64,000 bases of DNA, from contig OZ038382.1 of the NCBI GenBank assembly GCA_964036045.1, positions 5,828,289 through 5,892,288 on the forward strand. The letters are read 5' to 3'. This document shows, piece after piece, positions 29,489-64,000 of the stretch. Position numbers and translations under genes: made by a program. The stretch comes from Eutreptiella sp. 'Long Island Sound 2002'. Taxonomy: Eukaryota; Euglenozoa; Euglenophyceae; Eutreptiales; Eutreptiaceae. Below the pieces are notes generated by a model. The model was not told the origin of the DNA and made no database searches. It saw only the letters and a list, made by a program, of their open reading frames with translations. Every line of letters begins with the position of its first letter. Positions within the stretch are counted from its first letter, which is position 1.

Positions 29489-30890
29489 CGTCGTCAGACT
29501 GATACTCCCGCTCATCTGGAACGATTGTGTGAAAAATGCCGTGGAGAATGTGCACAATTGTTCTCACACAAACCCAACACACGCACGGATTCACACCCAC
29601 CCATGCTGCACGTTGACACGTGCATGATTTGTTGCAGCAGCCGAGCCCTCGCTCGCCCGCCTCGCATTGTGTACATGGGTCAGGGGTGGCAAAGTGTGAA
29701 AAGACCACATCTGTGATACATCACGACAAGCGTGCGCCATAGGCCGATCATGCCGTCACAAGAAGGACGTGCGGCCTGAAGCCCTCAGGCTTCGCGCCAT
29801 TCAGCTGGGGCCCACGCACACACACACATAGACAGGATCAAGTGTGTTCAGTGCTGCAGTTGGACACTGGGTATCGTCCCTACTTGTGTTCTTACTACGG
29901 CCTATGAGCCAATTGTCTGGTGCCCTGCCCTGCCCTGCCCTGCCAATTGTACGCCTTGGTCGCACATCCACCTGACGGGCCGAGGGCACGGACAGCTTCC
30001 TTTGTTTCCTGACAGGCCGAGTGGAGATTTCGTGGGTCCCTCGGCACCTGGAAGCGGCACATGGGCAGAGATCCACCTGGGCCGGGAGTGGGGATGTTGC
30101 CACCCGCGTACACCCTAGAGGAACACGGAGTATCATGAAGTGCGCTCGAGCACCTGAAAGGGAAAGCACAGGGAACAAGCCCTCGCTGAGTGAGGAATCG
30201 GCCCCACCGCCCGGGGGTGGGTCAAGGAGTGGGTGGGTGGGCAAGGTCCAGTTTTTGGCAAATGGGGGGGGGGTCCCTTTTTGGGGGGTGTGGGGTCAGC
30301 CAGGGATTTGGGACAGGGTCGAACACAGTGGTTGGCTGTGGCTCATGGACATCATCCTTCGCAGACTCTTGTTTATTCCCCTTTCATTATTTCTTGTCAC
30401 CCTCCCATGTCAGTGAAGACCTGCAAGGGTGGGGTGCCGAAGGGCCTGGCGACCTTCCTCCGAACTGAAGCCAACCACAATTCTGGGGTGCAAAGGTTTC
30501 CATACATTTTGGGGTCGGGGAAGGGCTCAGTTCATCCCCCCCGCACCCCTGGAGTGCCTGCGTGGGTGAGTGGGTTGGCTCGGGCTGCTGGGACCCCAAA
30601 ATTACCCCCCCCCATCCCCCCAGGGCTCATTAAACAATGGCTTGACAGGGAATCCAGCTCGAAGATTGAGTTTCAACCCACTCTTCCTGGCCACTGTCTG
30701 CGTTGGGCTGCCGGCCACGGTTTGTGCCTGCAGCCTATGCGCAACACATATTCATGTGCCCATGCCCACAGCCGATGCCCATCACCACTGCCTATATCTC
30801 ATGCGCATAGCGCGCCTGCGACATGCACCGCAGTATCCCAAGTCCCTAGTGCATCCAAAGCTTTGGGGGCTTCATGATATCACGGTGCGA
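29489..30890. other. Intergenic, no gene seen
   Basis: Contains four CCCTG units near 29,923-29,943 and poly-G tracts near 30,265. Pro/Gly-rich frames on the plus strand lack domains. No terminator or poly-A signal could be assigned to the kinase gene that ends at the right edge of this stretch. Confidence 0.45.
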
Positions 30891-52797: not shown

Positions 52798-52968
52798 ATG
52801 GAACGTGTTGATGATTTTGATGCTGAGGCGGCCGCTGCCTTGGAAGAATTCACAAGCGGCATGGCGCCCCTTTCCGACCAGGACAAGGTCATGGTCCAGG
52901 AAGGCTGGAACAAGGTGTTGGCATGGAAAGAGACCTTCATGGAAGCGATGGCCATCCGTCTGTGTCTT
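52798..52968 (+). CDS. Globin-NOS exon 1
   Basis: Starts MERVDDFDAEAAAALEEFTS, then PLSDQDKVMVQEGWNKVLAW, which matches globin helix A with its invariant Trp, and KETFMEAMAIRL (helix B). Two phase-compatible junctions to exon 2 exist: donor GTATGC at 52,969 with acceptor at 54,575, or donor GTTGTG at 52,979 with acceptor at 54,564, which adds a few residues. A transcript is needed to decide. Confidence 0.7.
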
Positions 52969-55900
52969 GTATGCACAGGTTGTGCCCCAAGTACCCATTC
53001 TTCAATTGCACGCTCACTGCACATTCACCACCACCCCATTTTCAAAAGACAGATTGCGCCCCGGGCCTACGCCTGCACCCAGACACTCACAGATGGCAAA
53101 CAGCAGGCGTTCGAATTTGATTCATTGGATGTTCCGGTTCGTTGGGCAATGACAATGGGGACTGGAATGAGCTGGGCGGATGGGCTGGCTGTGAAGTGTG
53201 TCTGGCGTGGGGCATAAAGGCTCAGAAATCTGGGTTGATTTATGTGCGTTGGTCATTTGTTAAAGGATCCGTTATGCAGGGAGGGGCAGTGAGACCCTCA
53301 GTGCAGGCAATGAGAACTCAGGGCAGATGGGAAGTGAAGCAGAAGTGGTCCAAAGTGTGACGAAGCGCAACTGAAGTGGACTGTAGTGGAAGCGAACTGT
53401 AACACAGTGTAACAGAAGTATGCAACGGGGGTACTATGAAGTGTCAAGGGGGGGGGATAAAAAGAAGCTATCAATGGGAATTGGTGCGAGGCAGCCTGCA
53501 GGCACTGCTGGTATGAAACAACCGGGAGCAACACAATGCAGTAGGAAAGAACAGAAAAGGATTTCTAGTGGATGGGCAGCAGACCCATGTGCAGCCCCAA
53601 CACCAGATTCCACCCCAATCTCTTCTGTGCTGTGGTCAAGTTCAACCACGAACACGTACCAAAGTAGTAATCTGTAATGGCATTGCATCTCCTACCTGAC
53701 CATTGTGTGAGGTCTGCCTTCAGGAGAAATGTGCGCACAGTGCAACACGCAGTGTACAGTATTGGGGTGTTTTGCACGTGCACGTGAAAGCGGTACCCCA
53801 CACAGACTTTTGTCCTTGTACAGCACACAGTCCATGGCCAATGCAAGTTGTGATGAGTTTAGCACTGATGAAAGCTCAGCGAGATAGCATTGCTCGTGAC
53901 GCTCGCTCTAATTTTCCCTTTACTTCTCCCCTCTATCTCTCTGAACCCTGACCTGAAGGAACCTGTGTCATGCCGGCCGAAGAAGAGTGCCAGCTGCAAG
54001 CAAGGCATACATGGCAACGTAAGGGGACGTGTGTTGTGACATGTAGGCTCTTCTGGGGAAGGTCGGAAACACGGGGCCGCCGTGTTTGGACAGGCACTTG
54101 TTAGGACTCGCAATGTGCGCTATCAGCAATACGGTGATGTGGCGAATTCCCTTGCGCCATCTTCGGGCTGAAGGCCACTGGGCACCAAGGCTCTGGTTCT
54201 CATTTATCCTCTTTTTCGGGCTCCTCATTGCTGACGTCTGCCGCTGATGACACAGCAGGGGAGGAAGCAAACAGACATGAGCCCCCTGTGAGGCCTCTTG
54301 TCGGCGTGATGGGCGGTGCCCCGCATTACGGAGGTGAACGGGCCTCCGTGGCAGGGGGTGTGTTGGCAGCTCCAACGGCCATTGCTTCGATGAGGAGGGA
54401 GAGTGGAGCCTTTTGTGCTGTATGGTAAGCCCAAGGGCTGCTAAACTGCTTCCGCAATTTGCGCGTACAGTGCGATGCACGGCACGCATGAGCCACAGAT
54501 CCAATAAGTGTATCCAGGTTTCGCTTCATGAACGCATACCAGCTTCGGTCTGCTTCTCAAACAGGTCTGCCGCAGGTGCTGAAGAATCTGCACTCAGAGT
54601 TCCCCGACCTGCTCTTCAGCACGTTGGATTGCACCGTGCGGGCCCTCAACCCGGACCGCCATGTGGTGCACCAGGAGGCGTACCGCGCAGCCTGCCCCGA
54701 CGCCACTGGCCGCGATTCGCATCTGCAAAGATTCGTAGACCAGGGCTTCAGCCCAAAGTGGTGGCGTGCCACGCTGAAGGTCTTCGTGTGGGCCCTACGC
54801 ACCCACGTCCCGTCGATGGGGACAGCGGAGCTCGCGGACCTCGCTTGGCCAAGCCACCAATCAGTGTTCGCGCGGTTCTTCTCGCTTCACGTTGCGGCTC
54901 CGGCCGTTGAGACCGCGGTCGCGCTCCGCAAATACATGCGCTCCCCCATCTTTGGTGGACAAGGCGTGCAGGGGCACTGGGCGGACCGCATGCGGGACGA
55001 CCCCAGTGGGGCCTCGCTGGGCGAGAAGTTCTTCCGGCGGCTCCTGGGCAACAACCCTCAGCTCATGGACTACTTCAAGAACGCGGATATGGACACGTTG
55101 TCGCTGCACATTGTCCGGGCCCTGGACATTATGGTGACCTCTGCACCAGAGGTCCGCGTGCCCGGGAACAGGATAGGGCGACTCCAAAATAGTTATGCGG
55201 AGGTTGAGGCATGAAAATGCAGATGAAGGAAGGCTCCTCGCGACAACATACGGATTCGTTCATTTGTGTTCGTGCCGTTATCCGGAAGTACCAACCGGGG
55301 CACCAGGGCACCACCCAGAGGACGGGCCCTTCAACGACCGACCTCCCAACGCCGCCACCGCCCCACGGAGACAGCGCAGGGTACAATCGGCTGAAGCGTT
55401 CCAAAACGTCCCCGGGGGGGGGGGGGGGGGGGGAGGGACTTGCTTTAATTTTCATTCCGACGGGGGGGGGGCTCCCCCCTGGACCCCCTCCCCCCCTCCC
55501 CTGGACCCCCTCCCCCCCCCCCCCGCTCAAGCAAGTCCCTGGGGGGGGGGGGGGTTCCGTAAAAGATCAGTCAGTATGCCATCGCGGTGCAGGAGTACGG
55601 TGTGGTCAAGCAGTGGGAACAAATTTGGAAAATATTGTTTTGAACCACTACTTGATGCATAGATGACCCCTGCTAACCTAAATCCACTAGTGTGGACTTT
55701 TGACTCCAAATTCCCGGCATTCATGGGGCAAAGCAAAAAGAAATGTTGTGTGTGTTAGCAGTGGGGACACATTCCCTTTTCGAAATCAATGCGAATTGGC
55801 GACGGTAATGCTTTTCAACAGAGGTTCCACCTCACCGAGAAGGTTTGGCCCCGTCGGTGTTGAGCTATGTCAACCACCACAAGATGGTATTTGAGCCAGT

Positions 55901-58834
55901 TGAGCCCTTTTTAGCCCGTTTTGAGTAAAAGAGTCTCTGGAGCCGCCTTGGGTACATTTTTTAGTTAGAGGAGGGTTACTAAGCTTTGGACGGCTTCTCA
56001 AATCAATTACAGGGGTTGGAATTAAAAGGCAATTTGTTTTTGGAAGCTCCAATCCTACCGTAGCATGTGTGTACGGTGCGCCCCTCGTTGGTGCTATTGG
56101 TGCACTTCAGGATGTTGAGGGAGCGGGAATCGCTTGCACATGTTTCTATTCATCATCGTTTATCATTTATCGACATAAGGGGGCCCAAGGCAATACATGG
56201 CAGTCGAACGCAGCAAATGAAGGTGTAATTTCATTCACGAATGCTGACCATTGGAGGAGGCCTCAGACCACAGGAACACGGTCTCAGTCAATTTGGCTGC
56301 CAACGGCAGCAGCAACAAGAGCAGTTGTGCCTTCCGCATGCCCCGCTCTCGTGCCCAGGTCGGCGTCGCCGGAGGCACGCTGCAGCGACGCCTGCAGCAC
56401 CTTGGAGAGGTGCACCGGCGGATGCTCATCCCCACACGCGTGTACGAGGTGATGGCCGAGGAGATGCGCCTCGCCATGGAGTTCAAGGACCGCCCGGACG
56501 GCGCCTTCACAGGCGCCGAGATGCAGCAGGCCTTCACGGAGGTGCACGACCGGAACGTGCGGCTCATCATGCAGCCCATGGCCCGCGAGGAGAAGCTGCT
56601 GTCCGCGGCGGAACGGTGGTTCCTGGACGTCATTGTGCCAGAATGGGGCTGGTCGCCGGAACAGCTGTCCAAACGAATGATGGACGTCCGTTTGGAGGTG
56701 TGCGTGTGTGAACCAACACTGCCACTCCACGGCCACCAGCCCTGAACAACTGCCAACAGCCGACTGCCTTCAAACAAGCGATAATCGGCGTCGGTTGCCC
56801 GCCGACCGCTGACTGCTGAAAGCCGGTCAACCAGCACCCGACTCTCCTGCCCGAAACCAAACCGAAGCGCGTCTCCCATGCCGACGACCATGTTGAGGCG
56901 ACACAAGTCGCGTCTCACCACGAAATGCCACTCCGCCATTTGCTTATCGCGTCAAACGCGCGGTGGCCGGGGCACGCCTTCTGTGTAGCGGAACTTGGTG
57001 ATGCGTAATGTGATGTGCTGTGCGGTGCGGTGCCGTGCGGTGCTGTGCTGTGATGTGATGCGTAATGTGATGTGATGTGATGTCTAATGTGATGTGATGT
57101 GATGTTGTGTGATGTGACGCGGCGCGATGCAATGTGTCGCGACGTAATGTGATGACACGTGAAGTGATGTGATCCATTCTCGCTCCTTGGGGTTGCACCA
57201 AATTGGCACAACTCCTGTTAAGGCGCGCAATCACATCACATCACATCACATCACATCACATCACATCACAGCACATCACATCACATCACATCACATCACA
57301 TCACATCACATCACATCACATCACATCACATCACATCACATCACATCACATCACATCACATCACATCACATCACATCACATCACATCACATCACATCACA
57401 TCACATCACATCACATCACATCACATCACATCACATCACATCACATCACATCACATCACATCACATCACATGGCGCAGCGGATTTTGAATTGCGGGAAGC
57501 CCCCAAAAAGAGGTGGTGGCGGAGGTCCGGGCCGAGGGTGTAACTGACCGGGACCACAAATAAGGCATTGTGAACTCTGGCGCTGACGAAATTTTTTGGG
57601 ATCAAAAATGGTCAAAACTGGGGGGCAGACGCCGCTCCACGGACTCCAGACCCCCTCGTTGCGCTGACTCCAAGCGATATGGCGCGTGCGGAGCCCAGGG
57701 ATTTTCAATCACGCGGGGAGGGGGGGCAATATAGCCCCCTGGCCACCCCTCCCCCCCCCCCCTCAAAAACAAAAGTTGGGGGGGGTCAATGGACGGACCC
57801 CTTAAAGCCCCCTGGGATGGCCCGCAGGTGACCGGGAGCGCAGCTCTCAGAAGAAGTGAAAACGGTCACTGCAGTGCACAGGTCCCAAACCGGGCGGTTG
57901 TGATGTGATGTGATGTGATGTGATGTGATGTGATGTGATGTGATGTGATGTGATGTGATGTGATGTGATGTGATGTGATGTGATGTGATGTGATGTGATG
58001 TGATGTGATGTGATGTGCTGTGATGTGATGTGATGTGATGTGATGTGATGTGATGTGATGTGATGTGATGTGATGTGATGTGATGTGATGTGATGTGATG
58101 TGATGTGATGTGATGTGATGTGATGTGCTGTGATGTGATGTGATGTGATGTGATGTGATGTGATGTGATGTGATGTGATGTGATGTGATGTGATGTGCTG
58201 TGATGTGATGTGTTGTGATGTGATGTGTTGTGAGGTGATGTGATGTGCTGTGACGGAGCCTGCCGACAAAAAATCAGTTGTTGCGATATGATGTGTTGTG
58301 TGGTGTTGTGTCTGTCTGGCGATGGGTGTTGTACTGTGCGGCTCTCTGTTGCATCAACGCGGATCCCCTCCGGTCCTCCCCCCCCCAACAGGTCTCACTG
58401 ACGGGCACGTACAGTCACACACCCCAAGAGCTGGAATACGGCGCCCGAGTTGCCTGGCGGAACACTGCGCAGTGCGTGGGCCGCATCACGTGGAACGCCC
58501 TCGTGGTGCGCGACCGGCGGCACGTGACGGACCCGGCGGAGATGCTGAAGGAGTGCGTGGAGCACCTGCAGACGGCCACGACCGGGCCCAACGTGGTCAC
58601 GATGATGACGGTGTTCCGGCCCCTGAAGCCGGACGAGACCGAGGGCCCCCGGTTCTGGAACGACCACTTTGTGCAGTACGCCGGGTACCGCGGCCTCCAC
58701 CCCGACGGGGGCGTCCTCGGGGACCCCGCGACCGTGGAGTTCACGGAGTTCCTCGTCGAGAAGGGGCTGTGGCAGCCGCCCGCGAAGTACACGGCCTATG
58801 ACATCCTCCCGCTGGTGCTGAAGGTGCCCGGCAG
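52798..58834 (+). CDS. Globin-nitric oxide synthase, 5' part (globin-like segments plus NOS oxygenase)
   Basis: Four exons join in phase 0: 52798-52968, 54576-55151, 56359-56697 and 58392 to about 58834. About 509 codons are read before the frame leaves the last visible exon. Order: an N-terminal globin-like segment, a second globin-like segment with a proximal-type His, a helix matching the pre-oxygenase helix of NOS, then the NOS oxygenase domain with the heme-thiolate motif. The enzyme family makes nitric oxide and citrulline from arginine. A globin module could oxidise NO to nitrate, as known for the globin-NOS of the cyanobacterium Synechococcus PCC 7335. The arginine-binding Glu region, the rest of the oxygenase, and the calmodulin and reductase parts are not found. 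Either intron 4 runs beyond the window (over 5 kb) or the gene is truncated by the retroelement region after 59 kb. Confidence 0.82.
54576..55151 (+). CDS. Globin-NOS exon 2: rest of globin-like 1, start of globin-like 2
   Basis: Encodes VLKNLHSEFPDLLFSTLD and then HLQRFVDQGFSPKWWRATLK, in the position of globin helices F and G but with Phe where the proximal His is expected. The first segment may therefore not hold heme in the usual way. GVQGHWADRM and EKFFRRLLGNNPQLMDYF follow, matching helices A to CD of a second globin. It ends at SAPE before GTCCGC, a weak but in-phase donor. Confidence 0.7.
55434..55540. repeat. G/C-hairpin foldback element, copy 4
   Basis: The arms AGGGACTTGCTT and AAGCAAGTCCCT are perfectly complementary over 12 bases. 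Read on the minus strand, the interior has the same GGGGGTCCAGGGG core as copies 1 to 3. It lies in the second NOS intron and is flanked by longer G runs. Confidence 0.7.
56359..56697 (+). CDS. Globin-NOS exon 3: heme His of globin-like 2 and NOS linker helix
   Basis: Starts after CTCTCGTGCCCAG. LQHLGEVHRRMLIPTRVYEV aligns with the F helix of globins (proximal His, then Ile-Pro, then Tyr). The second half, KLLSAAERWFLDVIVPEWGW and KRMMDVRLE, resembles the helix leading into the NOS oxygenase core. It ends in phase 0 at GAG before GTGTGC. Confidence 0.75.
56998..58310. repeat. Three pentanucleotide arrays in alternating orientation inside NOS intron 3
   Basis: 56,998-57,176 is a degenerate GATGT array. 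57,231-57,470 is 48 near-perfect TCACA units, the opposite sense. 57,901 to about 58,253 is about 70 TGATG units, with a degenerate tail to 58,310. Opposed arrays could pair into hairpins of 170 to 240 base pairs with 54- or 430-base loops. The 430-base spacer holds no gene. His/Thr/Ser repeat frames on either strand are artefacts. Confidence 0.97.
58392..58834 (+). CDS. Globin-NOS exon 4: N-terminal half of the NOS oxygenase domain
   Basis: Starts after CCCCCCCCAACAG with VSLTGTYSHTPQELEYGARV, followed by AWRNTAQCVGRITW, the NOS heme-thiolate signature with its Cys. RFWNDHFVQYAGYRGLHPDG, GDPATVEFTEFLVEKGLW and YDILPLVLKVPG follow, all collinear with animal and bacterial NOS. It probably ends at GTGTGT (58,835). 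An alternative donor GTGCCC lies at 58,824. Confidence 0.9.
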
Positions 58835-59575
58835 GTGTGTTTTCCCGGCGGCTGCGGCACGGCTGTGGACTCCCCATGGGCCGAGTGACCACCAACGGTT
58901 GGCTATAGCGCGGATGCAGTGGGTTTTGTCGTCCTGTTGCACAGCCCACACTTGTGCTTGGGCCCTCCCCACACTACCTTCCCCCCTTTCATTCTCTGAG
59001 ACCAGCGCTCTGGTCCCAGGGCAGAGGCCGTCCCTGTTGACAGTGGAGGGGGGCTGCCCCCCCCCCCCCCTTTCCAATGCCTCCCCGGGGCTCGGGGAAG
59101 GTTCCAGTCAGTACTTATGGTGTCTGCACCAGTCTGTTCGGTTTTCGAGGAGGAAACTGTCGACAGTGTTCATCCGCAGGCGGCGGGGTGGCCATGCTTC
59201 ACATGAGGCCCTTCCCAAGACAGTGACATTTAGAGGGTGCTCACCAGCGCTGACTTGGGAAATGTGACACAGGGCCAGGGGTTCAGGATCACCAAGTGTT
59301 GCCCATCACAAGGGCTCAGCATTTCCAGGCATTTTGCCATTAATATTTGTACCCCCCTCTCCCTCCCCCACTCCCCGCCAACATGAGAGCTGGACAGTCG
59401 TCCCTCCGCTCACAAGTGCGGCTTGTGCCTCTTGGCGTCCCTCCCACGCCGGTGCCGGCCACGCTTCACAAGAAATCTTTCCCAGGACAGCGAAGGTCGA
59501 AGGGTGCTCTGGACCAACATTTTTTTGTGGTGACGGGGCAGTCTAGAGGGGACCGAGGCGGTCCAGTGTGGCAGT
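58835..59575. repeat. Post-NOS region with a diverged 55-bp direct repeat
   Basis: GGCCATGCTTCACATGAGGC...AGGGTGCTC at 59,190-59,241 recurs as GGCCACGCTTCACAAGAAAT...AGGGTGCTC at 59,458-59,511. Continuation exons of the NOS oxygenase were looked for here by eye and not found. Confidence 0.55.
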
Positions 59576-61051
59576 GTGGCAGGGGACATGGGACAGTGTG
59601 CAGGATACACAGCAGCTCAGGCTTGGAAAGTGCTGAGAGAGAAAAAGGAGTTCCAGTGTAAGTGCAAGAACGCACGAGTACAAAAATGGCTGGAAGAGAC
59701 GGACAACGAAAGACTACGGCGCCGGCAGGTGAAGGCCACAGCCGAGCACGGAAAAGGGGTAAAGGAACAACAACGAGACAAGAACACAACCGCCAGGGAT
59801 GACGAAGTTGACTACTTCGACCACCCATTTCGAGATGGCAGTGATATTGAAGGAGAAGAACATGCAGAGGAGAAAGGAAAAGACCTCCGGAACACGGGGG
59901 CTGCTCCTGGTCAGGACCCGACCCCAATGGAGGGGGGGGGTACCCTTCCCCCCCCTCTACGCACAGTCACTCTAAGTGTATTTCCCTCCCAGCGACCGAT
60001 TGGTCCATTCCGTCTGTGTGGGTGGGCAGTTGGGGGAAATCTGCAAGCCTGAAAAAGATGTCTCCCATTCCTTATGTCCCGCATTGACAGTCTGCGGCCA
60101 CATGGAAGGCATTCTGGCGTGCGCGCCTGCCTCCATTTCTCATAGAGTTTTCCTATCAAGTTTTGTGGGCCAAACTCAAAGTCAGGAACGACTCCAGAAC
60201 TGGACCAAATTCCCATGGTGCCCTATTTGCACGGCCATTGAATCTGTTAGCCATGCAACCTCGGAGTGCAGCTACCATGCCCTTGGGGGGGGGGCACAAT
60301 TGATTTCTGCTGGGCCCTGCCTACGCGGATGGTATCGGCTACTCGGTGAAGGCATTGCCTACACAACATTCTTTCTCCACACCACAGGGCATCATAGGAT
60401 GGACGGCTAAGGCTGCCCATTGGTCCCCGAGGAATCAAGTCAAACACAAGGCATCTTTACCCACACATGAGAGTTTTCTTTTTCAGTGGATGAAAATCTT
60501 GGGGCAAGTAATTTCCCGGGAACCTCTACAGTCTTATAGCAAAGTGCTTTTGCAGTTTCATGACGCACTGGCCTCGCTGGTGCAAACCGGTGCACTTCCA
60601 GCTGAGCGTATCATGATTCTTAAACACAACTCCTCGGCTGTCCAGCAAAGACCTCAAGAAGCGGAAAGCCCAGGAACGAAAACAGCAGTTAGCAGTTAGC
60701 AGAGGAAGCCAAACAAATCATCTCCCAACTTGAGGAGGATATATGGACCTTAGCCTTCACAGATGGCTCAGCGAAGCACCATCCCAAGATTGGTTGGGTA
60801 GCTGGATACTGTTGTGTGGTGTTGGGACAGTGGGAGGCTAAAGGCTTTCTCCCCCCTTCCATGGCACAAACAAACAACAGAGCAGAGCTACAGGCAGTCA
60901 TCACTGTACAGGAACACTTTAGGTCAGTTGACCTTCGCCTGGTGATCATCACCGACTCTCAATACATATATGATGGCCTCAATGGGGCAATGGGGCTTTT
61001 AGATGGCGAGCAGCGGGATGGGTTGGTCAGTCAGGGCCAGTGTGTAATGTA
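59576..61051 (+). pseudogene. Decayed LINE-type retroelement end with zinc knuckle and RNase H
   Basis: In order: a charged Lys/Arg/Glu-rich frame to 60,052 of uncertain relation; the knuckle CPICTAIESVSHATSECSYH near 60,218-60,280; a linker; then RNase H from about 60,720. RNase H residues are visible as LAFTDGSAKH (Asp), NNRAELQAVITV (Glu) and VIITDSQYIYDGL (Asp), with the C-terminal His/Asp part missing. Successive parts lie in different frames. One cause is visible: TTAGCAG is tandemly duplicated at 60,689-60,702, a 7-base gain just before RNase H. It is a second, older element of the same general kind as the one at 33-34.6 kb but not closely similar. A role in disrupting the NOS gene is possible. 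Confidence 0.65.
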
Positions 61052-61929
61052 GACCTGTGGATAACACTGGGGTAGGAGGGCTCCATTATATCATGTTCTA
61101 TCACTCCCTGAGAGACCAGTTGTCAGTTTGGAGCTACCTGCCACCCCCACCCCTCGGCGAGCTCCGGCAGTTCCAAGGTCGCTTGACATCAATGACATTA
61201 TCACTCCATCACGAGATACACCAGCGCTGAGCAGAACACCAATCCATACCCCTTGCCATGACACAGATCCTATCCTGCCAAAGTGCCTGGATTTTTCAGA
61301 TCAAGACGCTAAGATGCTGTCCATTGTTCATCATTCACCATAAATTGCTCGTCAGCCTTCTACAGTGTCCATCTCTTCACATGACACTGCCAGCACAGTA
61401 AGTTTTCATGAGTCAGATGTTGCCGACAATCCTGAAAATAGGTGGATGGCTCTAGGGTTAATCGCCCGAGAAACACCTGCTCAGCCTCGCCTTCCACGGC
61501 GGCTGAACACCCCGAGTACAGAAGCCAGCTCACACCATTATGGTTACGACAGTGACAGATTGTCTTATGCATCTGGATGTCAAACGCCAGACACGGATTC
61601 TAACTAGCCTGGCCCGAACCCGTAGGCCACGCGTTTGGCCCACACACCCCAGTGAATACCCTTCCCACCTTTCCCCAAACGCGGAGTGCAAACTGACCTC
61701 ACTTGGCCGAGTAGAGCCAGCGAAAGCAAGGTGAGTAGGATTGCAGTCAGCCAATGGGCGCCCGAAGTGTACTGCTCGATGTAAACACCAGGGTGTTGAA
61801 TCAAACAGGCTGGTTCAGTGGAACACCACAGTGCATCATAGTTATGATCTCGAATGAACTGCCGAACATTGTTGCATATGCATACCAGGACGTGCATGTG
61901 TGGAGCGCTTTGTGACCTGCTGCGGCCCC
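61052..61929. other. Intergenic, no gene recognised
   Basis: A plus-strand frame at 61,128-61,343 is Pro/Thr/Asp-rich (LDINDIITPSRDTPALSR) and might be a continuation of the neighbouring retroelement, but it has no domain. Confidence 0.4.
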
Positions 61930-62310
61930 CCTCTACAAACCCCAAAATGGTTGTATGGAACAATGGGTTTTGTGGGCGCCAGAAGCGCCGGAGATTTTGG
62001 TTTAGGCATACGGCGGGGGGAATTTTTTTTGTTTGACCCGATGTGTCTATACTCAAAATACTCAGAATTTTGTGGAGAACTCAAAAACTGGTTAAAAACA
62101 CAAAAAAGTATTTTGACCCCAACCCGACCTCCGGGCCGGACCTTGGCTGATGGGAGCCTAAGTTGATGGGCAAATTTTTTTGAAAAATTTTTCTACCCCA
62201 GTTGTGTACATTCAAAATGATGAGTGTTTCATGGGGATCATTTTGAGGTATGTATGTTGGGGTACCCACCGACCCCCCCCCCCCCCCGGGGAGCCCGGCG
62301 GCTGGCCACC
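61930..62310 (+). repeat. Dispersed repeat, copy B (partner of 14.6-15.0 kb)
   Basis: Carries the same ordered landmarks as copy A: CTATACTCAAAATACT, a T-run, TTCAAAATGATGAGTG, GGGGATCATTTTGAGGTATG, then GGGGTACCC and a G/C-rich hairpin-prone end (CCCCCCGGGGAGCC). Confidence 0.7.
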
Positions 62311-63052
62311 CGGCCCGCCGACCCCCAAGGTTTGGCTCAACCAAGGGGTTGAGGGGTTGGCCCCTTGGGTGGGGGTTGGGCGTCCCCCCCCTTGCGACCC
62401 CCAAAACGGTTGCACACCCCTCGGGGTCACACATTGGCTGGCGGCAGCCGCCGTGCTTTGAAACAAGAGGGGCCTTAGAGGGGAAGGAACAGGAAAACGA
62501 AAAGCAGCCGAGGAATTTAGGCGCAGCAGCAAGGGAAACAACGGTGGGCACGGGATCGCAGGGCATTGGGGCTGAACTAGTGGTGGGCCAGGGTGTGCGG
62601 TTGGTAGGAATGAAACAAGGGGATTTGGAGGGGTGCAGGGGAATAATTGAAGAAGGGCAAGGGGGAAATTGGCTTGCGCAGAGGGGGGGATGTGGGAGCC
62701 TCCCGAAGGAGGGGAGGGGGGCTAGCAATGGGGCTCCCGTGACAGAACCCTTGGTAAAGTACCAATTTTTTTGCCATTTTTGCCATTTTTTCACTGAATT
62801 CCGGAACTAACTCCCGCCGGTCCCTACGGGGTATAAAAGGGGCACGGGCAGGGCCTAGGGGGCAGTTCCCTAGTGCGCTCAACCTTGATGCTAGGGTTTG
62901 ATGTTTCACAGGTGTGACACCCTTGTGGCACATCCGAAGGGGAGGGGGGAAAAGAAAAACTTGAGGACTGGGGGTGCCCAGGGCTCCTCCTCAGGAGTCG
63001 CAATGCCCTCCGTCTGTACATTGTAAAAATCTGTACTGTGTCACTCAGCATC
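62311..63052. other. Intergenic, G-rich, no gene seen
   Basis: Gly/Pro-rich frames only. Near 62,765-62,790 the word TTTTTGCCA is repeated three times (TTTTTTTGCCATTTTTGCCA). Confidence 0.4.
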
Positions 63053-63160
63053 CCACGGAGAAACAAATGGAAGATATGGCACGAATTGCTTTGGGGAGTG
63101 TCTCCAAAGTGGCACAGATTGAGAAATGGTTTGCACACCGCCGCGGCCTGGAGTTTTGAA
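63053..63160 (+). pseudogene. Homeodomain-like C-terminal fragment
   Basis: After an acceptor-like GTGTCACTCAG the frame reads HPTEKQMEDMARIALGSVSK, then VAQIEKWFAHRRGLEF and a stop. The pattern P-x-x-x-Q-x-x-x-h-A...Q-I-x-x-W-F-x-x-R-R is that of homeodomain helices 2 and 3, whose W-F-x-x-R-R face binds DNA. No matching helix 1 exon was found upstream. It could be the last exon of a split gene, a relic, or chance. No promoter or partner supports activity. Confidence 0.4.
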
Positions 63161-64000
63161 GAGTGAGGCTCGGTGAAAGCGGCGCTGCGGATAGGTGACT
63201 CCTGGTGTATTGGCTGCTGGGGAAGGGATACACTTGATAGTGGACGACCCAGTGAGACTCATGGCTCAACCAAACCGCGCAAACATCTTAGCAGCTGAAC
63301 TAGGGATAAAAAAAATATGGACATCAACACATACAGCACCAGTACCCATACCACACACCAAAGCAACCAACCACACAGGGGCACGGAGAGGGGTGCGGGG
63401 ACTATAGAGTGGTGGGGCACTGATGTTGGCGGCAACCGAACCACAATTGAACCAGTGACTGGGGGACAGGGTCACCGATGGCGGATGTGGCCCCGTCACG
63501 ATTCGGATTGGGGACTGATTTGGTTGCTAGTGGCACAAGAGGCCACATCACCAATTACAACGCTGACACCACCTGGAATGGACAACCCCCCTGCTGCACC
63601 CCAGCAACAACCCCAGCAACTCCAACCACGACGCCAATGCCACAGCAACACCAACACCAGCAACGGCGGCTGCACACACCCACACCACAACAGCAGAGGG
63701 CAGCCAAGGACAGCCCATGGCAGCCATGAAAAGACGCCTGGGGCACTACAGGCCCTGGTTGACCAACAGACACTTGACAGGGGAGGGGGGGGAGGCTGCG
63801 GGCTCCTTCCTTGCCCCAACTGCGGGGACGCATACCAAGGGGAACTAGCCCTGGTCCTGAACCCTTAGTCTGACTGCAGGTGCTACGTGCATGGTCTACC
63901 ACCGTTGCGCCAGCTAAGGCCATCAAGCTAGCTAACAGCATGAAACTACGCCCAGGACAGACTGGGATATGTGGTTGAGCTGAAGCAAGTGGCCAAAACC
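63161..64000. other. Right end of window, low-complexity frames, no gene recognised
   Basis: CAAC/CAGCAAC-rich DNA around 63,590-63,720 gives Gln/Pro/Thr-rich frames. A short PCPNCGD motif near 63,815 is too small to assign. Confidence 0.4.

Follow-up and report, generated by a model that had tools for sequence, protein, structure and literature searches.

A euglenophyte globin-nitric oxide synthase gene of the SyNOS type with a predicted change in its oxygenase pocket

Background

The closest described system to the gene considered here is SyNOS of the cyanobacterium Synechococcus sp. PCC 7335 (PDB 9q05, 9q06; PMC12922734, PMC6104048). According to PMC12922734, its chain comprises an N-terminal, Ca-sensitive C2 domain (residues 1-134), a heme-free pseudoglobin (179-339), a globin (340-473), a nitric oxide synthase (NOS) oxygenase domain (474-852), a flavodoxin and an FNR; the pseudoglobin, solved by cryo-electron microscopy, fills the position at the dimer interface that the zinc site would have. 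The gene compared with it, gene A, starts at position 52798 on the + strand of a 64,000-nucleotide stretch of DNA from Eutreptiella sp. 'Long Island Sound 2002' (the window; contig OZ038382.1, C5:5828289-5892288, in the 2.28-Gb assembly GCA_964036045.1 of 2205 contigs).

Eukaryotic genes of related composition have been described. N-terminal globin-NOS genes have been reported for the diatoms Pseudo-nitzschia and Skeletonema (PMC8728061), and published accounts cover globin-NOS from diatoms as well as NOS-globin from green algae (PMC8728061, PMC7554344). Klebsormidium KnNOS2 and the chlorophyte NOS-globins also join NOS and globin in a eukaryote, with the globin C-terminal according to PMC8728061. 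No euglenid NOS gene study was found among the titles listed from the open-licence literature, and no fitting NOS pseudoenzyme or arginine-site-altered algal NOS among the listed titles and abstract openings.

Neither the heme-free first globin, which corresponds to the SyNOS pseudoglobin, nor an N-terminal globin-NOS in a eukaryote is therefore new here. The unexpected part is the predicted alteration of the oxygenase pocket, encoded in an exon just beyond the window; because the oxygenase exons concerned lie outside it, the losses are mostly invisible to a reading of the window only.

Results

A pair of globin-NOS genes

A search of the genome for NO_synthase, in which only the best candidates were scored, gave 12 exon matches at four loci, so that there are at least four NOS loci: A, D, C (contig C20) and B (contig C6). 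Gene models were derived from 16 sequence stretches around these loci, those of B and C being assembled from exon fragments whose ends are approximate. In the model of gene A, 12 exons are separated by introns that all follow GT-AG (11/11 joins). Its product, of about 1,375 aa counted to the last certain residue, has the order pseudoglobin, globin, NOS oxygenase, flavodoxin and FAD/NADPH reductase. Its paralog D extends from C5:5630705 down to 5602543, in the opposite orientation and head-to-head with A at a distance of 250 kb. It is intact, with 14 exons, 1,391 residues and GT-AG at 12 of 13 joins, and shares 65% identity with A (1,364 residues aligned).

Lost and kept residues of the oxygenase

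The oxygenase domains of A and D were aligned with 190 of 193 homologs, leaving out P0001 and P0092, which are fragments of the two genes themselves, and P0004, which is too short; the 190 range from bacteria to fish, and many are mutually close and not independent. Residues are named by what we take to be their mouse iNOS numbers (Glu371, Gly365, Arg375, Trp457, Tyr367, Val346, Trp188, Cys194 and Trp366). The Glu371 column has Glu in 190/190 homologs and Ala in both A and D, encoded by GCC in A (window coordinate 65101, outside the window) and by GCG in D. Gly365, likewise found in 190/190, is Ala in both. Arg375 (Arg in 189/190, Cys in one) is Lys in both, and Trp457 (Trp in 181/190, with 4 gaps, 2 Tyr, 1 His, 1 Ser and 1 Gly) is Ser in A and Ala in D. 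At the Tyr367 column, which has Tyr or Phe in 187/190, both have His, and at the Val346 column (Ile, Val or Leu in 189/190) A has His and D has Phe. The last column is presumably the equivalent of nNOS Val567. The block of altered positions is gapless against the nearest relatives as far as the Leu after the Lys.

The assumed numbers Glu371 and Arg375 are consistent with the roles given in PMC13291759, where Glu371 is the substrate-holding residue of a computed NOS model and Arg375 forms a bond with the pterin. According to PMC6120233, nNOS Val567Phe lowers the affinity for L-Arg and N-hydroxy-L-arginine 100- to 300-fold.

The heme-thiolate Cys194 and the stacking Trp188, both present in 190/190 homologs, are retained in A and D, as is Trp366. 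The Cys codon of A lies in the window:

58473..58475, + strand: heme-thiolate Cys codon

The motifs for FMN, FAD and NADPH in the reductase half, GSETG, RYYSIxSS, GVCSxYL, GPGTGLAPMMGFL and VCGDA, are all present in A and D.

A conservation threshold of 95% in the 190 homologs defines 49 columns. A retains 42 of them and D retains 44, and the two have five losses in common, namely Gly365, Glu371, Arg375, Trp457 and the Asp of a 'DHH' stretch. These five positions are unchanged in all of 55 SyNOS-type relatives (Trp457 in 53, with 2 gaps), from which P0165 and P0168, with what we take to be EF-hand domains, were excluded. When the columns invariant in the 55 are considered, the oxygenase has lost 13/84 in A and 10/84 in D, nine of them in common. 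The losses of A and D in the other domains are 0/18 in the flavodoxin, 1/45 in the FNR (the column of A residue 1149, altered in both) and 1/6 in the globin (B10), and in the pseudoglobin 0/9 for A and 1/9 for D. A raw count of losses set against controls (maximum 5, median 0) was rejected as evidence, because the controls had helped to define the columns.

Selection

Between A and D, the Nei-Gojobori method gives a synonymous distance (dS) of 1.01, a nonsynonymous distance (dN) of 0.27 and a dN/dS of about 0.27, a ratio that is rough with dS near 1 and a GC content at third codon positions of 0.85-0.88. By domain, dN/dS is about 0.23 in the pseudoglobin, 0.29 in the globin, 0.22 in the oxygenase, 0.27 in the flavodoxin and 0.31 in the FNR. 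The oxygenase thus has the lowest ratio, and it is also the domain most identical between A and D (72.5%). Codon changes are most frequent at the third position (629), followed by the first (347) and the second (282). Because dN/dS is low and third-position changes exceed those at the first and second, the altered oxygenase is still under constraint.

Domain architecture and comparison with SyNOS

Four Pfam families match the full product of A:

Residues 334-691: NO_synthase (PF02898), 1.9e-99, 333.5 bits
Residues 725-854: Flavodoxin_1, 2.2e-20
Residues 970-1168: FAD_binding_1, 3.9e-18
Residues 1199-1308: NAD_binding_1, 1e-11

The part encoded in the window was also searched by itself. Exons 1-3, joined with phase-0 junctions (362 aa), match SyNOS (PDB 9q05_A, 175-510) over residues 23-361 with E 2.9e-28. 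At E up to 1 they match four distinct sequences, two of which are SyNOS; the others are an engineered repeat protein (1.7e-5, with no individually passing stretch) and a weak single-domain globin (0.015). The first globin-like segment alone matches SyNOS 175-327 (E 1.3e-11), while the second scores 2.9e-4 and 21.7 bits against Pfam Globin, just under the 22-bit cut-off; in the full protein, Pfam Globin reaches 17.4 bits, below threshold. Exon 4 matches SyNOS residues 514-655 (E 7.3e-51) and PF02898 (E 8e-48). The first-pass annotation, made from the window only, had read two globin-like segments directly before a NOS core in an intron-split eukaryotic gene, and had proposed profile searches of the exons. 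On these matches, which are far beyond chance, the observation stands, with the globin profile itself marginally under its cut-off, and the 12-exon model and the colinear match to SyNOS agree with it.

The domain order is identical to that of SyNOS except for C2. Common to both proteins are the first globin without its His, the F8 His and CD1 Phe of the second globin, the oxygenase fold and the heme Cys. Gene A differs in having 11 introns and no C2 that could be found, in four replaced residues of the arginine/pterin pocket (Glu, Arg, Trp and Gly) and in the replaced Tyr B10 of the globin. A C2 profile built from the N-terminal region (about 160 residues) of 27 relatives gave no match at E <= 10 in the plus-strand frames of the 32.8 kb upstream of A exon 1 or the 9.3 kb upstream of D; P0159, used as positive control, had probably itself contributed to the profile, and a domain in very short exons could escape such a search. 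The best tblastn match (E 0.012, 29% over 75 aa) is on the minus strand. The relatives P0115 and P0119 likewise begin without C2. By its predicted product, gene A is of the SyNOS-type globin-NOS architecture minus C2.

Exons and introns

Gene A extends 21 kb beyond the right edge of the window, with four exons inside and eight outside. Positions beyond 64,000 continue the window coordinates.

52798..52978, + strand: exon 1, residues 1-60, start Met and first pseudoglobin helices, aligned with SyNOS from 175; donor CAG/gttgtg, picked to fit the read-through in paralog D
52798, + strand: start Met of exon 1, in agreement with the intact relatives P0115 and P0119, whose start is similar
54565..55151, + strand: exon 2, residues 61-256, remaining pseudoglobin, then the second globin (first third), matching SyNOS; acceptor tctcaaacag/GTC, donor GAG/gtccgc
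56359..56697, + strand: exon 3, residues 257-369, helices F-H of the second globin, then N-terminal oxygenase helices
58392..58834, + strand: exon 4, residue 370 onward, NOS oxygenase core with the heme Cys
58835..64000, + strand: intron 4 within the window, the whole intron reaching 64913
64914-65355, 67604-68008, 69104-69327 and 71014-71450, + strand: exons 5-8, outside the window
73814-73977, 74954-75166, 75797-76141 and 84729 to about 85070, + strand: exons 9-12, outside the window, the last certain only up to about 85070

The four exons within the window lie where the first-pass annotation had placed them, and the remaining oxygenase, FMN and FAD/NADPH exons, which it had expected to the right, are the eight that begin at 64914. 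Its joining of the four exons in phase 0 holds for junctions 2 and 3. Junction 1 does not follow this pattern: the phase-0 join at 52968/54576 was rejected and the junction reset to 52978/54565 (phase 1, a 21-nt correction adding 7 residues), because paralog D crosses this point in one exon. Exon 3 is continuous in D with the exons on both of its sides. A micro-exon missing ahead of exon 12 was considered and rejected, since the direct join yields a well-aligned reductase motif. The segment 76228-76500 resembles an exon and is similar in both paralogs, but was left out of the models as a probable, though not proven, dispersed repeat.

Seven of the 11 joins of A, including all three within the window, are uninterrupted in the D model, and 9/13 joins of D, the doubtful one counted, are uninterrupted in A. 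This comparison serves as a cross-check of the exon models, also against the possibility, named in the first-pass annotation, that exons 1-3 and exon 4 stand on different transcripts. The two genes, with 11 and 13 introns, have only four in common, all in the reductase half and none in the globin or oxygenase part, which suggests intron gain or loss after the A/D duplication. Introns lying between an exonic AG and GT number 4/11 in A and 2/13 in D.

Intron 3 contains pentanucleotide arrays, (ATCAC)n and (TGTGA)n, at 57230-57471 and 57899-58253. They are mutual reverse complements (242 nt, 100% complementary; in the best register 456 nt separate them), and a very long intronic hairpin could form from them. 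In the stretches fetched around B, C and D, no array run of at least 8 exact units was found, and related repeats occur in C. An RNase H domain at 60693-61052 in intron 4 (PF00075, E 2e-12) is probably a retroelement piece. An Rfam search of the window gave 0 matches.

Globin and pseudoglobin residues

The residues that decide the character of the two globin-like segments are as follows.

54747..54749, + strand: F8-equivalent Phe of the pseudoglobin, the column being assigned by eye
55032..55034, + strand: Phe at B10 of the second globin, where SyNOS-type relatives have Tyr
56413..56415, + strand: proximal (F8) His of the second globin

The pseudoglobin position is Phe in both A and D, and none of 51 relatives has His there (M 24, V 11, L 11, F 4, I 1); many have a His four residues further on, where A has Trp. 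A Phe in place of the proximal His in the first segment, as the first-pass annotation had read it, is thereby confirmed, and the second segment does have its His. The same annotation regarded an enzyme with a duplicated, possibly heme-free sensor half as unusual, but that half corresponds to the SyNOS pseudoglobin already described in PMC12922734.

In the second globin, the F8 His is present in A, D and 45/51 relatives, and the CD1 Phe is retained in A and D. B10 is Tyr in 48 of the 51 (Phe in 2, Ile in 1) and Phe in A and D. For E. coli flavohemoglobin, a title cited in PMC3820574 describes the B10 Tyr hydroxyl as essential for O2 binding and catalysis.

The proximal His column of the second globin is Trp in the SyNOS-type proteins P0151 and P0156, Tyr in P0159 and P0161, and Gln in P0121. 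Because these five replace the His, heme-ligand loss in the second globin of SyNOS-type proteins may have happened several times.

Relatives

In an oxygenase tree of 53 rows, A and D form one group (100/100) with a stem length of 0.51, and this group is sister (98/90) to the metagenome proteins P0114-P0119 and to P0123 of Sorangium sp. So ce1151. C stands beside P0154, and B with the plain NOS of the P0182/P0185/P0188 group; both retain the oxygenase Glu, Arg and Trp, and C, compared by eye, retains Tyr B10 and the F8 His.

The seven sister proteins are the closest to A (43-50% identity) and are C2-less globin-NOS predicted as single open frames. P0114-P0116, P0118 and P0119 are of nearly the same length as A (1,375-1,397 aa), and P0117 and P0123, as listed, are shorter N-terminally. 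Unlike A, all seven have the pocket Glu, Arg, Gly and Trp, and the six that include the region have Tyr B10. We infer that the A/D lineage may be of bacterial origin, with introns added later, which would explain both the sister group and the mostly unshared introns. Epithemia P0129 and Tribonema minus P0169 are, like A, eukaryotic N-terminal globin-NOS; in contrast to A, they retain Glu, Arg, Gly and Tyr B10, and they belong to other branches of the tree.

Two further sets of relatives differ in extent: P0002 and P0003 (about 550 aa) comprise, by eye, only a pseudoglobin and a NOS oxygenase, with no second globin and no reductase, and P0141, P0144 and P0149, two of them named cyanobacterial, are longer and have PF18599 attached. 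Elsewhere in the assembly, full or near-full rbcL copies occur on large contigs (C7:94068808, C2:24394161 and C2:94527090) besides the plastid-like C2205; those on C7 and C2 are probable nuclear plastid DNA. C2205 itself, taken to be the plastid on account of its rbcL and an ATP synthase gene, has an rbcL of the green type. Among 120 listed matches to it, the nearest named ones of comparable length are those of Strombomonas acuminata (93%), a member of the Euglenophyceae, and S. costata (92%); a further piece of 435 aa scores 96%. This agrees with a host that is probably a photosynthetic euglenophyte.

Discussion

On balance, it seems somewhat probable that A and D encode a selected, NADPH-driven heme redox enzyme derived from a SyNOS-type NOS, rather than an arginine-to-NO synthase, and that their pocket serves another ligand. 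Since A and D retain the motifs for FMN, FAD and NADPH, the thiolate Cys of the oxygenase heme and the F8 His of the globin, electrons from NADPH would still pass via FAD and FMN to the oxygenase and globin heme(s). The Phe of D would stand at the presumed equivalent of nNOS Val567, where Val567Phe weakens L-Arg binding, and the change of Arg375 to Lys together with the loss of Trp457 would alter the pterin site. Once Glu371 is lost, the guanidino group of arginine would be without an anchor (for the role of Glu, see PMC13291759 and PMC6120233). The oxygenase would thus no longer hold L-arginine and tetrahydrobiopterin in the usual way, nor would the globin stabilise bound O2 through Tyr B10, and on these grounds A is predicted not to be an arginine-to-NO synthase. 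The pocket, still constrained, would take another ligand, most likely a non-arginine substrate, and ordinary NO synthesis in the cell would fall to the canonical NOS genes B and C. An enzyme that both makes and consumes NO in one chain, as first envisaged for this gene, is probably wrong, given that the Glu, both pterin contacts (Arg and Trp) and the Tyr at B10 of the globin are replaced.

Several observations weigh against this account. When each of the 55 relatives is left out in turn, together with rows more than 70% identical, their oxygenase losses show a median of 5 and reach at most 10 (Tribonema P0169), so that the 10 losses of D are not exceptional and the 13 of A are only slightly above the maximum. 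Similarly, 7-9 of the 49 columns are missing from five of the 190 homologs, fungal or short sequences among them, as compared with 7 in A and 5 in D. Because the number of losses is not exceptional, the case, read from sequence as it is, rests on which residues changed. The change of Arg375 to Lys is a conservative one, and the dN/dS values are rough. The changes were found in no other species and are thus seen in one genome only.

A decaying gene or an assembly artefact would fit the exon 10/11 join of D, which has no canonical acceptor in the model, exon 11 starting at 29835 without an AG, and the long stem of A and D (0.51 changes per column). Such an origin is very improbable, however, since the same changes occur at two separate places of the assembly, in two open multi-exon frames of 1,375 and 1,391 residues with GT-AG at 11/11 and 12/13 joins, and dN is well below dS. 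More serious, though still unlikely, is a role in NO scavenging only, in which the oxygenase would be a structural dimer scaffold and the reductase would feed the second globin, NO being consumed in the manner of flavohemoglobin. The retained F8 His, CD1 Phe and reductase motifs would fit such a role, and the SyNOS globin is an NO dioxygenase according to PMC12922734; but Tyr B10, kept in 48/51 relatives, is Phe in A and D, where the E. coli title (in PMC3820574) calls for its hydroxyl, and it is the oxygenase, not the globin, that has the lowest dN/dS.

The retained heme Cys, Trp188, Trp366 and oxygenase fold (333.5 bits over residues 334-691) may alternatively be taken to mean that A and D are still arginine NO synthases, other pocket residues compensating for the Glu, or pterin and arginine being bound differently. 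We regard this as rather improbable: the Glu is present in every homolog, several other pocket residues change too, and close relatives in which the Glu is retained also have an Asp or a Glu where A has the Asp two residues before the Glu position. Still less probable is a regulatory pseudoenzyme, in which A and D would form heterodimers with canonical C and adjust the supply of electrons to it. NOS electron transfer does run between subunits, the genome does have a globin-NOS with a canonical pocket (C), and A and D retain the reductase motifs; yet A and C are distant in the tree, and the pterin-site Trp is lost. A heme redox enzyme with a changed ligand remains our preferred reading. A bolder form of it, that A and D found a new class of NOS-derived heme-thiolate monooxygenase acting on a non-arginine substrate, with no canonical pterin site and with its own diflavin reductase and globin, is possible but on the doubtful side, and is put forward only tentatively.

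Conclusion

A gene pair that has lost Glu371 but in which the heme ligand, the reductase motifs and the signature of purifying selection persist would offer a natural test of the versatility of the NOS fold. The SyNOS-type genes would thereby reach the euglenophytes, and a NOS-domain match in an alga should not be taken as evidence for arginine-dependent NO synthesis.

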